DNA of 38,820 bases from an uncultured Gammaproteobacteria bacterium. GTDB taxonomy: Bacteria > Pseudomonadota > Gammaproteobacteria > SZUA-229. Where the stretch lies: positions 1 through 38,820 of the forward strand of contig CAJXZZ010000021.1 in the NCBI GenBank assembly GCA_913065105.1, written 5' to 3'. Of the stretch, positions 14,794-34,354 are shown one piece after another. The notes under the pieces were generated by a model. The model had not been told where the DNA came from and searched no databases. It saw only the letters and a list, made by a program, of their open reading frames with translations. Position 1 is the stretch's first letter; the number at the start of each line of letters is the position of its first letter. The position numbers and the translations under genes were made by a program.

Positions 14794-14808
14794 TTGAGGT
14801 TTTTAGCT

Positions 14809-17800
14809 TTGGCAACCGTTATGAAATCAGAAGAAAACATTACTCTCCGCGATAGACGCGCCGTAGATGGACGTCAGGTAACTTTACAGCATATATGTCT
14901 GCAATTGGCCTCATTGGGTCATCGCTGTGACCTCAGTGCCGATCATGGCTATTTATCGGTAGCCGATAGCCTGTTGAAAAATTATTCGGCGCAACGTCAG
15001 CTATTAGCAGAGTACCGCTGCCCAGCAGACCAACGCATTCAGGATTTTTTAAACAACTATTTAAAGCGCAACGGCGTTGATGTAGAAATTAAATTACCAG
15101 GTGAAACCTTTAATTTGAATGAGAAAGGAATTGCGCGTGAGTTGTCACTGCCGTATGACAATAACACCTACAAATCAGATTTAGTTGAATCGTATCGCTT
15201 GATTCAAGGGGTGTTACATAATCCTAAAAACGACCGGCGTACAACATCAGGCGTTTTTCATATAGTTGAAGGCGGATTGCCGATACCTGCAGACAAAAAA
15301 GCGGTTCCTGTTGATGTTTATGCCAACTTGTTACAGGTCGCCCTGGACCCGCCTACAGAATTACTTAGTCTACCTATTGCCAGTGAACACGCTAACCCGG
15401 TAGATATGTGGGTTTCTTTATTACTAAGGCCTGTGGTACGCCCAGAGGTTGAAGGTGCTTTACCAGAGAAGAGTCTTGAAACACGATTTTTTGCACCAGG
15501 CTCCCTGGTATCAAACCTGGATTTTGTAGAGTCTATTTTTGGTAACGCCGGAGACCCGTTTTTATCTGAAAATGATTCTGCGCTGGATATTGATCATTGG
15601 ACCGGGCATAGCGGCTGCGTGATTTTAGCGCCACACCTGACTAAATTAAGTAAAAAAGCACTTGGTTTGCCGCACTGTGATGATGCCACTGAGCGCCAGC
15701 GTGAAGAAGGTATGTGCTGGAAAAATGATGACGAGCTTTATAATGATGGTGGTGCATTTAAAGTAGTTTGCCGTGATATGGATGGTGTCATTGTTACCAT
15801 CATTGCAGACAATTATTTCGGTTACAGCAAAAAAGAAATTAAATCTCAAATCAGTTATTCAGCCAATCTGTTTGGTGGAGCTGAAGAAGAACATTCTGGT
15901 GGTGCGATAGCATTTCCTCGATTCAATTTAGGTAATTACTACCTGCCAAAAGTTGAAGATGAGATGTCAGGTCACACTTTCACTCGTTTATGTAAACAGC
16001 TTGATGGCGGCATTACCGTTAAGGCTGATGGTTATGCGATTGATAATGTTTATCCTGATATTATTTATATTCCTGAAGATGCGCATATTGATATGCAGCA
16101 ACAGAATATTAGCTGGGGTCAAAATGCTAACAAACAGCAGCTTAAATTACGGACAAAACACACATATATTTATCCCAGTGGTTTTAAAGTCCATATGCAA
16201 AAACATCCGCAGGCGCCTAGCTGGCGGTTAATCGGTACGCTGGGTGAAGGAACCTTCTGCCACAAACCGAGCACGGTTTCAGGCGGTGGAAAATCCGAAA
16301 TCTCTAAATCGATTCAGGATTCAATGATTTCAGGGCCAGTTTTTATAGGCGACTTTGAAGACAATCTGAATCAGGTAGAAGCCATATTTAATTATGATTA
16401 TTCAACGCGTCGACGAGACAGTTCGACAAATGATAATCGTGGTGTTTTAAGTAATCAGCGTAGTCTGGGATCAGTGATACGTTTATTAACACCATCAACA
16501 GAAATTTATACTGATGAATACAACCTTTGGTTAGAAAGTATTCCACAATACATTTTGGCTCTGGTTTATATGATCAAACGTTTTTATAAAACAGAGTGGG
16601 GAACTAACTGGCGCGTGCATTTTTCTGTGGATGAAGTAAATGGTAATCCAGGACATGAATTAAAATTTGACGGGCGTAAACTGATTACCAGTTACCTGCG
16701 TGTCGGTGTGCGTAGTGATGGCACCTGGAGAATTTATAAATTGCGACAGGATTTTGTCGCTGCAACAAAAGTACAAACTGAGGATGATATTACTGCGTCA
16801 ACGGTAGTGCCGGTAGCGTATGTTGAAGGTGAATTGAATCCCCGATATAAAAACCCAAGCGTGAAACTGGTAAAAAATTGTGAAAGTCGCTTGTTTCAGC
16901 GGCCTGATGATGCGATTAATCGAGGTTTTGACAGACAAACAGAGTCAGACCTTGCGGAACAGGGTAACTTTATTTCAAACTTTGAACCGCTTACGAGTGA
17001 TGATGCGCGTGAGCAGGTAGAAGATGCCATAAGTTTTCAAGAATACTCGCAACCAATGCAGGACTTGATCCTCAAAGCAGCAAGTACAGAGGGTGAATAT
17101 TTTGTCTCATCAGCACATCCACGTATTGTTGATGGCGAGCCTAGTAAAAATGTTCGATATTTACAAAAGCGACCTGATCTAGCAAATCCTAGATATTTGT
17201 ATCTCGCTCAGACAGGGACAAGACTATCGCGCGGTTTATCGCTGGATAAACCGGTGCATTTTCCAGTCAATGCAGTATTGCAGGGTCGGCGCAATAACCC
17301 AGAAGATAAAGCCGCAGGCATTCGACCGCTTGCGGTTTATAATCCCATTCACTATCAGGAACTGCCCGAATTGTTTATGGATTCAATCTGTAGTCTTACC
17401 GGTAAATCACCATCAACAACAGGCGCGGGTTCTGAAGGTGCTCTAACAAAAGGGCCATTTAATGCGCTTTCAACAACAGCGGATTTAAACAACGCCCTGG
17501 TATCATTTATTTTATGTGATTATGCCGGTTACTCATCAGCTGCCGGTTACATTGGGTCGGGACGTCGTGTTGATCACGACATCAGTATGCTGATTCCAGA
17601 AATCTGGTGTCGTTTACCAATAAAACAACGCGATCCTAAATATTTAATTGAAAATGGTCACCTGGAAAAAATAGAAGACTTTGAGTATGAAGGTAAGACT
17701 ATTAATGCCAGTCGCCTGGGATACAGAATTACAGAGAAATTTGTACATGCATTTTTTGGTAAAGTTTTTGACAGCCCAACTATTGTTTTTGATGAAAAAA

Positions 17801-18270
17801 TGTTACGGCCAGAAACGCAAGGCATGGGTGCATATGTCGATGGTATAAATAACATTGTAGAAGCACAGCAAAAAGTGGCTAAAGCATATATTAAAGATGG
17901 ATCAATTAATGATGCATGCCCACCCCTACAGGCCGTATTAAACATAATGGCAAATGGTAGCCATGAAGGTAAAACTATTGACGACCCATGCATTCGAGAA
18001 ATGTTTACTCTTGATTATCTGTTACAGAGTGATTGGTACAGGCAGCGCTTAATAATTAAACAACAGCGTGATGCAGCATTATGGCAAATGAACCGCGATT
18101 ACATCGAGCAAAAAATGGATGAAACCAATGAATCTGTCACTGACGTATGGGCAAGCCTACAAGGTCAAATGGAAAATGCAGAACAGATGTTGGAGTGGGT
18201 TAATAGCGATAGCTATCTGCAACGATTACAGGGCACGATAGGTGCAGACTGGATACATAAAAGCGCCTAA
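14809..18270 (+). CDS. Putative pyrophosphate-dependent phosphoenolpyruvate carboxykinase (PPi-PEPCK)
   Basis: A very large cytoplasmic protein of about 1,153 residues without membrane segments. I assign it to the PPi-type PEPCK family (EC 4.1.1.38: PEP + CO2 + Pi to oxaloacetate + PPi, reversible), whose known members in Entamoeba and Propionibacterium are also about 1,100-1,200 residues. Conserved-looking blocks, numbered from the upstream TTG at 14794, are GHSGCVILAPHL (271-282), YNDGGAFKVVCRD (316-328), ADNYFGYSKKEIKSQISYS (338-356) and a glycine-rich, P-loop-like VSGGGKSE (495-502). This last resembles the kinase loop of other PEPCKs. The family match rests on memory of sequence style and length, not a search. 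Start choice: GAGG at 14796-14799 is 9 bases before the TTG at 14809; the ATG at 14821 and the TTG at 14794 are alternatives. A pyruvate kinase gene lies downstream on the same strand, which suits a role at the PEP-pyruvate-oxaloacetate node. Confidence 0.62.
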   Translation: MATVMKSEENITLRDRRAVDGRQVTLQHICLQLASLGHRCDLSADHGYLSVADSLLKNYSAQRQLLAEYRCPADQRIQDFLNNYLKRNGVDVEIKLPGETFNLNEKGIARELSLPYDNNTYKSDLVESYRLIQGVLHNPKNDRRTTSGVFHIVEGGLPIPADKKAVPVDVYANLLQVALDPPTELLSLPIASEHANPVDMWVSLLLRPVVRPEVEGALPEKSLETRFFAPGSLVSNLDFVESIFGNAGDPFLSENDSALDIDHWTGHSGCVILAPHLTKLSKKALGLPHCDDATERQREEGMCWKNDDELYNDGGAFKVVCRDMDGVIVTIIADNYFGYSKKEIKSQISYSANLFGGAEEEHSGGAIAFPRFNLGNYYLPKVEDEMSGHTFTRLCKQLDGGITVKADGYAIDNVYPDIIYIPEDAHIDMQQQNISWGQNANKQQLKLRTKHTYIYPSGFKVHMQKHPQAPSWRLIGTLGEGTFCHKPSTVSGGGKSEISKSIQDSMISGPVFIGDFEDNLNQVEAIFNYDYSTRRRDSSTNDNRGVLSNQRSLGSVIRLLTPSTEIYTDEYNLWLESIPQYILALVYMIKRFYKTEWGTNWRVHFSVDEVNGNPGHELKFDGRKLITSYLRVGVRSDGTWRIYKLRQDFVAATKVQTEDDITASTVVPVAYVEGELNPRYKNPSVKLVKNCESRLFQRPDDAINRGFDRQTESDLAEQGNFISNFEPLTSDDAREQVEDAISFQEYSQPMQDLILKAASTEGEYFVSSAHPRIVDGEPSKNVRYLQKRPDLANPRYLYLAQTGTRLSRGLSLDKPVHFPVNAVLQGRRNNPEDKAAGIRPLAVYNPIHYQELPELFMDSICSLTGKSPSTTGAGSEGALTKGPFNALSTTADLNNALVSFILCDYAGYSSAAGYIGSGRRVDHDISMLIPEIWCRLPIKQRDPKYLIENGHLEKIEDFEYEGKTINASRLGYRITEKFVHAFFGKVFDSPTIVFDEKMLRPETQGMGAYVDGINNIVEAQQKVAKAYIKDGSINDACPPLQAVLNIMANGSHEGKTIDDPCIREMFTLDYLLQSDWYRQRLIIKQQRDAALWQMNRDYIEQKMDETNESVTDVWASLQGQMENAEQMLEWVNSDSYLQRLQGTIGADWIHKSA

Positions 18271-18469: not shown

Positions 18470-18793
18470 TTAGGCAGTGCTGCCAAAAGATTTATCCACA
18501 GCGCCTGCGGGAACATTCAGCCCAGCCAGGCGGCAGCCTTCTGCAACTGGACCTCCGGGGATGATTTGATAAAGATATTTCATACCACCACGGGAATGAA
18601 ATTTCTCCTCAAGCGCATCTTTTATCTGTCGTAATTTGGGAAAATCAACTTTACAATAATATTCCTGTAAAGCGCGAATTAAGTCCCAATGGTCGTTGCT
18701 TAGATTCAAGCCATCAATTTTTGCTGTATCTTCTGCTGTTTTGATATCCCAATCCTGTGGCGCATTAGGGAAAGATTCTAGTGAAACGTTCAT
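18470..18793 (-). CDS. DsrC/TusE-family protein lacking the terminal cysteine
   Basis: A 107-residue protein of the DsrC/TusE/RspA family: the helical core shows GLNLSNDHWDLIRALQEYY and the flexible C-terminal arm GGPVAEGCRLAGL. Canonical DsrC carries two arm cysteines 11 residues apart that form the trisulfide used in sulfite reduction or sulfur oxidation; TusE keeps only the last. Here the first (CysB) is present as Cys87, but the CysA position is Ala98 (codon GCT), and a further nine residues (DKSFGSTA end) follow. It therefore can neither form the DsrC disulfide nor act as a TusE persulfide carrier in the known way. A regulatory or RspA-like role is possible. An AGGAG ribosome binding site 6 bases before the ATG is clear. 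It lies 45 bases downstream of a membrane protein gene on the same strand, likely one operon. No dsrAB is in the window. Confidence 0.85.
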   Translation of the reverse strand: MNVSLESFPNAPQDWDIKTAEDTAKIDGLNLSNDHWDLIRALQEYYCKVDFPKLRQIKDALEEKFHSRGGMKYLYQIIPGGPVAEGCRLAGLNVPAGAVDKSFGSTA

Positions 18794-18838: not shown

Positions 18839-19399
18839 TTAGGGAAAAGTGGTTGTTGTAAAGTCTTTGAAACCTTGCTGCCCCATAACAATCCAACGAG
18901 GTGTGGCTGTCCCTGTCCCGGCATCGACGAGAAGAGGATGATTTATTTCAACTTGTTCGATGATATCTTCCTGTGAGGAATCGACATCTACGAAAAAGAC
19001 ATGTTTGCCGTTTTTCAGGTCTGACTGAAATCGACGAAATTCTTTGTGTGGTGTCTGAATGCCATAGAAGCCGCCACTCCATGTAATAAAGCCAAACAAT
19101 ATAATGGCAAGAAAATAAAATGGTACCCAGGTATATGTTTCAGGAAGTGTTGTGAGATAACCAATAGCCATTACCAGGGCTGCTGCTAACAGGCCTAACG
19201 TGGCGCCGACTATGGTACCGTTTACTATGTTTTGTTTGAACACGGATTCAATATTATGCAGATGTTTATGCATATCTACACCGGTATCGTCTTTGCTTAA
19301 GACATGAATTTGTGGTCTATGAATACCTCTTTCCTCTAATTCAGCTTCGATACGATCAAGGTCATCAAGGTTATCACTAATAAAGTAATGTCTTTTCAT
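18839..19399 (-). CDS. Membrane protein of unknown function with soluble N-terminal domain
   Basis: A 186-residue protein. The N-terminus (residues 1-55, RHYFISDNLDDLDRIEAEL) looks like a small alpha/beta domain, followed by two membrane helices at about 61-85 (GTIVGATLGLLAAALVMAIG) and 90-112 (WVPFYFLAIILFGFITWSGG), then a C-terminal soluble part containing HVFFVDVDSSQEDI, which repeats the style of the N-terminal fold. Homologues are often labelled magnesium transporter-like or glycine-zipper proteins, without proof. GGAG lies 6 bases before the ATG. It is upstream of, and probably cotranscribed with, the DsrC-like gene, which hints at a shared task. Confidence 0.7.
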   Translation of the reverse strand: MKRHYFISDNLDDLDRIEAELEERGIHRPQIHVLSKDDTGVDMHKHLHNIESVFKQNIVNGTIVGATLGLLAAALVMAIGYLTTLPETYTWVPFYFLAIILFGFITWSGGFYGIQTPHKEFRRFQSDLKNGKHVFFVDVDSSQEDIIEQVEINHPLLVDAGTGTATPRWIVMGQQGFKDFTTTTFP

Positions 19400-34015: not shown

Positions 34016-34354
34016 TTAGCTGCAGCCCTTTGGTCGTGGTAAACCGGCAATTTTGTTGGCGCATTTTATTAGACCCGTTGGGAATAGAGAATAAATGTAT
34101 TTTTGGTCACTACGGTCTTTACCGTATTTTTTCTTCATAATTTTTGAAAAAGACCGTGGCTCACAAACACTGCCATTTTCCTGAAAATATTCACGTGCTT
34201 CTTTGATGATGTCCCAGTGTTCTTGAGTAAGCCCATCAACAATTTTCTCACTTTTAGCGATTTCAACAGCGAGCTCTTCACTCCACTCATCAAGGTTTTC
34301 CAACCAGCCAGCCTCGCTGAGCTGGATTATTTGACCGTTAATTTCTGCTTGCAT
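34016..34354 (-). CDS. tusE: TusE/DsrC-family sulfur-transfer protein
   Basis: A 112-residue protein. The core LDEWSEELAVEIAKSEKI and GLTQEHWDIIKEAREYF, and the C-terminal arm NKIAGLPRPKGCS, match TusE closely. The terminal redox cysteine is Cys111; the DsrC CysB position is Asn100, as in TusE, which has a non-Cys there. An extra Cys98 sits two residues earlier, and Cys64 is in the middle. TusE accepts sulfur from TusBCD and hands it to MnmA for 2-thiolation of U34 in tRNA; here it is a single gene without tusBCD. GAGG lies 8 bases before the ATG. A bidirectional terminator follows. Confidence 0.85.
   Translation of the reverse strand: MQAEINGQIIQLSEAGWLENLDEWSEELAVEIAKSEKIVDGLTQEHWDIIKEAREYFQENGSVCEPRSFSKIMKKKYGKDRSDQKYIYSLFPTGLIKCANKIAGLPRPKGCS

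Follow-up and report, generated by a model that had tools for sequence, protein, structure and literature searches.

A CysB-only DsrC-like protein from a gammaproteobacterium belongs to an FG-tailed subfamily that co-occurs with dsrAB

Dissimilatory sulfur metabolism relies on DsrC as its central sulfur carrier. DsrE passes sulfur to DsrC, persulfuration takes place only at CysA, and the interaction between DsrEFH and DsrC depends on that residue (PMC3397948). The DsrC trisulfide then serves DsrAB (PMC13293266), and a cysteine at the CysB position is nearly confined to organisms that possess DsrAB as well (PMC3397948). Extra DsrC-family genes in sulfur oxidisers are known, without an assigned function (PMC3368242, PMC4287430, PMC7787665). 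A. vinosum has four DsrC-family homologues (PMC3368242), namely Alvin_0028, Alvin_0345, Alvin_0732 and Alvin_1508, the last of which declines on pyrite alongside the dsr genes (PMC11267869), and the Riftia symbiont has several (PMC7787665). In viral DsrC-type proteins, one or both cysteines are lost (PMC4164917, PMC8190135).

The window, by which we mean the whole 38,820-nucleotide stretch of DNA that was analysed, contains a DsrC-like gene at 18470-18793 on the minus strand that encodes 107 amino acids. The Shine-Dalgarno sequence AGGAG lies 6 nt 5′ of its ATG; a promoter scan of the locus gave chance-level sites only, and no terminator-like site was found there. The translated product, MNVSLESFPNAPQDWDIKTAEDTAKIDGLNLSNDHWDLIRALQEYYCKVDFPKLRQIKDALEEKFHSRGGMKYLYQIIPGGPVAEGCRLAGLNVPAGAVDKSFGSTA, which ends in ...GGPVAEGCRLAGLNVPAGAVDKSFGSTA, is a member of the TusE/DsrC/DsvC family, scoring 64 bits against Pfam DsrC PF04358 (cut-off 24.9) and 62.7 bits against TIGR03342 (cut-off 53.5). 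A phmmer alignment pairs its Cys87 with CysB (Cys100) and its Ala98 with CysA (Cys111) of A. vinosum DsrC (1yx3). The original prediction that only the inner cysteine is kept was borne out by this alignment and by the codons, TGC for residue 87 (18533-18535, minus strand) and GCT for residue 98 (18500-18502, minus strand). Past the CysA position runs the tail VDKSFGSTA (18473-18499, minus strand), within which Phe103-Gly104 is encoded at 18482-18487 on the same strand. An arm extension of nine residues had been claimed; nine do follow Ala98, but CysA of canonical DsrC is itself followed by one, which leaves a net gain of eight. The family consensus for the arm base is P-x-G-P-x-x-Q-x-C-x-x-A-G-L-x-x-P, in which the window copy has Glu for Gln.

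An AlphaFold model built from a small alignment of our own loci (pLDDT 81.5, helices only) predicts a DsrC fold. The best structural matches were 7syb (VIA Z 10.2) and A. vinosum DsrC 1yx3 (Z 9.8; Foldseek E 5e-5), and the next best, at Z 3.1-3.4, were PerR-type winged-helix proteins. The last seven residues fall under 50, the tail is disordered in the model at a pLDDT of about 40, and no docking mode is visible in it.

Despite its family membership, the product is not DsrC proper, since CysA is missing and the gene lies outside the dsr operon. Nor is it TusE, as CysA is absent and the score against the TusE equivalog PRK11508 (46.1 bits) is below the cut-off of 191. RspA, as reportedly defined by Venceslau et al. 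in 2014, lacks both arm cysteines. By this definition the product is not RspA either, since CysB is present and its place in the tree is apart; RspA-like paralogues of the same genomes with neither cysteine (KQGNRLAGVRKPKGEH, KQGLKIGGCPQSTRKGGY) fall outside the group to which it belongs.

Five DsrC-family genes with differing arms were found in the genome from which the window derives. One is a true DsrC with both cysteines, located on contig C8 as part of an intact dsr operon in which dsrA, B, E, F, H, C, M, K, L, J, O and P were read. The other four comprise one CysA-only gene, two with neither cysteine, and the CysB-only gene at 18470-18793. With a true DsrC elsewhere in the genome, the loss of CysA in the latter leaves the DsrC function of the cell in place. 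The CysA-only gene also lies in the window (34016-34354, minus strand) and has a TusE-like arm, IKCANKIAGLPRPKGCS, in which an additional Cys precedes the CysB position by two residues. Profiles, alignment and tree place it in a different subfamily of its own, with relatives at L207 and L213. Assignment of both arm cysteines to this gene was considered and rejected, since in the alignment the CysB position is occupied by Asn and the additional Cys stands two residues N-terminal of it. Tandem two-domain DsrC proteins of about 250-260 aa were also seen at four loci (L184, L187, L194, L196), in which domain 1 has no arm cysteines and domain 2 is CysA-only (QGSRIAGLPSPQGCID).

The residue states of the window gene are shared by its relatives. 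In all 25 orthologues from related genomes Cys87 is invariant, the CysA position is Ala, Ser or Thr, and the tail D-x-[SG]-F-G-[ST] is kept; a both-cysteine state is therefore not that of the close relatives, none of which has CysA. The gene is under purifying selection, with dN of 0.06-0.17 against five close orthologues and dS at least 1.8 or saturated, and thus not estimable.

To delimit the group, we define the FG-tailed subfamily by the motif D-x-[SG]-F-G-[ST] past the CysA position together with membership of the one split in the tree that holds the FG-tailed sequences; the window protein has both and is a member. Trees were built from core domain columns only, so that the omitted arm and tail columns could not shape them. 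Close members were found in 41 genomes from 23 families in a survey of 369 Gammaproteobacteria. In the first tree, a core clade of 70 sequences was recovered with support of 100/99, so the clade anticipated for proteins of the Ala98/DKSFGS type exists even with arm and tail columns omitted. In a tree of 168 sequences, one branch (98/74, present in 97% of bootstrap trees) separates 113 FG-tailed sequences, including one truncated row whose tail is lost, from 55 other DsrC/TusE/RspA-like sequences. That the FG tail arose only once is thus well supported but not proven, given that the SH-aLRT value of 74 does not reach what the program counts as strong and that the columns are few.

The distribution of cysteines on this tree is uneven. 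Within the core clade, CysA is Cys in 0 of 70 rows; CysB is Cys in 66 of the 70 rows, counted with the tail, plus one truncated row, and is Ser, Thr or Ala in three members. Outer FG-tailed members often have Ser, Met or Leu at the CysB position and keep the tail. Across the FG-tailed set the tree requires at least 11 losses or gains of CysB and one change of CysA, the latter in a side clade with both cysteines and the tail that comprises five genera of the window's own family. The both-cysteine proteins (L031, L034, L035, L170, L171, L201, L228, L229, L230) belong to genera g3, g6, g7, g11 and g12, in which the CysB-only core type was not found; the core type may have been replaced there by the both-cysteine type, or the reverse. 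In a set of 60 representatives that share less than 70% identity, 98% have Phe103, 100% have Gly104 and 68% have Cys at CysB, and the F-G of the tail is invariant in a 42-row alignment. The fixed element of the subfamily is the tail, not a cysteine. The arm-base residues are common to FG-tailed proteins and true DsrC, while CysA is replaced in the former. Two other CysB-only DsrC-like types (HEVCKLAGLPMPQPDD; KQACKIAGMQRPRAWSTG) have no FG tail and sit on branches of their own, so there was more than one origin of the CysB-only state. CysB-only proteins ending in PMPQPDD occur at L185, L189, L197, L199, L204, L209, L212, L221 and L136:4918-5355, and those ending in RPRAWSTG at L193, L200 and L215.

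The FG-tailed group is associated with dsrAB. Taking as carriers the genomes with an FG-tailed profile match that reaches the tail (65 of the 369), dsrA was present in 59 of 65 carriers versus 63 of 304 non-carriers (Fisher p about 5e-27, a value that treats related genomes as independent data points, which they are not). For this reason, the spread of the core clade over 23 families is a better argument than the p-value. Every one of the 26 carriers assembled into at most 100 contigs has dsrA, and the six carriers without it are all fragmented assemblies. Two of these (G118, G311) have a truncated dsrB match on a contig, and the other four (G142, G232, G338, G324) have same-genus genomes with dsrA (G258, G096, G108/G240/G417 and G224, respectively). 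Sampling the phylum independently gave five further carriers, three of them outside the class, and dsrA is present in all five. The link of the group to dsr is thus well supported, and much firmer than any mechanism. About half of the dsrA-positive genomes have no FG-tailed match, so the protein is not required for reverse dissimilatory sulfite reductase (rDsr). Neither this link nor the FG tail, the most conserved feature, had been part of the original prediction.

Co-occurrence with dsrAB is not accompanied by linkage. No dsr gene was found in or beside the FG-tailed gene in 90 neighbourhood loci, no neighbour recurring across the class was found, and no Dsr component was linked by position. 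In one genus (g5; L042, L043, L058, L158, L159) the FG-tailed gene sits between the ccm cytochrome c maturation cluster and the nap periplasmic nitrate reductase operon. A link to nitrate reduction was dropped, as the presence of napA does not track the gene within the family. In the window, an open frame of 1158 aa at 14794-18270 on the plus strand has no Pfam or NCBIfam match and is conserved beside the locus in several relatives (L037, L038, L039, L046, L060).

What might such a protein do? Lacking CysA, the window protein cannot take the DsrE persulfide at that position or form a CysA-CysB trisulfide or disulfide. Since the arm base of true DsrC is kept, the simplest reading is that the protein docks on a partner of DsrC, and since the group is found almost only in Dsr sulfur oxidisers, it is probably an accessory part or a regulator of the Dsr pathway. 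We tentatively favor, at a little under an even chance, a DsrC-fold accessory of the rDsr sulfur-oxidation pathway that docks and modulates without carrying sulfur. The partner that such a protein docks on would most likely be of the kind used by DsrC, either DsrAB or the DsrMK/DsrEFH side, the invariant FG tail would take the place of the catalytic tip as a docking peptide or plug, and the occupancy or activity of the rDsr machinery could be tuned with no substrate sulfur being carried. The structural match to the DsrC family, the shared arm base, the fixed F-G, the co-occurrence with dsrA and the organism's own dsr operon are consistent with this proposal. Against it stand the prevalence of CysB in the core clade, which a purely structural role does not demand, the dsrA-positive genomes that lack a match, and the absence of any conserved neighbor that ties the gene to Dsr. 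A bolder version is possible but doubtful, namely that FG-tailed DsrC is a dedicated, sulfur-transfer-incompetent component of rDsr, so far unnoticed. In about half of rDsr organisms it would then serve DsrAB or DsrMK as a plug, a gatekeeper or a docking subunit, and its hallmark would be the FG peptide rather than the cysteines. The earlier suggestion of a non-catalytic or regulatory member fits the absence of CysA throughout the subfamily except in one side clade; its assignment to the RspA type does not hold.

The main rival to a docking accessory holds that Cys87 is the working residue, the protein being a redox or sulfur carrier of the rDsr pathway with a single thiol. Cys87 would then carry a persulfide or enter a mixed disulfide, for instance with CysA of DsrC or with a DsrK or DsrL thiol. 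The invariance of Cys87 in the 25 orthologues, its retention in 66 of 70 core rows over wide divergence, and the reported association of CysB with DsrAB (PMC3397948), which matches the dsrA link, all speak for a carrier. Yet three core members and many outer ones have replaced the residue with the tail kept in every case, and in DsrC only CysA is persulfurated (PMC3397948); we regard the carrier as unlikely, though a serious contender. The protein could also bind DNA by means of the helical DsrC fold and regulate the transcription of sulfur-oxidation genes. A role in transcription regulation has been proposed for DsrC, as cited in a passage of PMC7787665, PerR-type proteins are the next-best structural matches after DsrC, and the gene is unlinked and stands alone, like many regulators. 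The PerR scores are nonetheless weak, no better than the noise among small helical proteins, and conservation is highest in the arm and tail rather than in a recognition helix, which makes such a regulator improbable.

Still less probable is that the protein works as one unit with the 186-aa membrane protein whose gene lies just upstream (18839-19399, minus strand) and for which no Pfam or NCBIfam assignment over cut-off was obtained. The two genes are separated by a 45-nt gap and may be co-transcribed here. A close orthologue occurs in 8 of 48 genomes of the order and in all eight directly precedes the FG-tailed gene in the same orientation, separated by a short gap, yet the eight belong to one genus. 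Most FG-tailed carriers do not have it, among them five from that genus (G005, G008, G009, G011, G014), and carriers of all other genera have no close orthologue and unrelated neighbors, so the membrane protein is no general partner. Homologues of 23-35% identity occur elsewhere. The partnership put forward in the original prediction therefore does not generalize, nor does the constant adjacency expected from it, and a two-gene unit as a general mechanism is largely refuted. A sequencing error or decaying DsrC paralogue found no supporting point and can practically be dismissed, given the intact frame with its ribosome-binding site, the residue states shared by many orthologues, and the low dN against a dS of 1.8 or more where estimable.

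No description of the FG-tailed subfamily was found in the open literature, and an earlier mention, for instance in the 2014 RspA-defining review, is possible. One subset of the unexplained extra DsrC copies is a coherent group with the FG tail as its hallmark and a near-exclusive co-occurrence with dsrAB, which together make its function directly testable. Metagenome surveys should be cautious in counting these genes as dsrC or tusE, because the window gene passes the family cut-off yet its product cannot do the known DsrC reaction.

Set against known systems, the window protein resembles each in part. Viral dsrC_1 of SUP05 phages, compared here by description only, likewise misses the second C-terminal cysteine, and it is also without a 7-8 residue insertion (PMC4164917). 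A phage origin was rejected: an IMG/VR scan found no FG-tailed relative among viruses, and a phage collection gave only two weak TusE-like matches. In a plasmid collection only enterobacterial tusE matched. With RspA-type proteins the window protein shares the loss of the catalytic cysteine and its status as an extra paralogue outside the dsr operon, but unlike them it keeps CysB and has the FG tail. TusE, which acts in the tRNA 2-thiouridine relay, is alike in arm base and in fold, as judged from the match to 7syb, described as a DsrC-family sulfurtransferase; TusE keeps CysA without CysB, whereas the window protein shows the reverse. A. vinosum DsrC (38-39% identity in structural alignments) is alike in fold, arm base, CysB and the kind of organism. 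In contrast to it, the window protein has a shorter N-terminus, a gene outside the dsr operon and no CysA, and its arm ends in eight extra residues that include the invariant FG.
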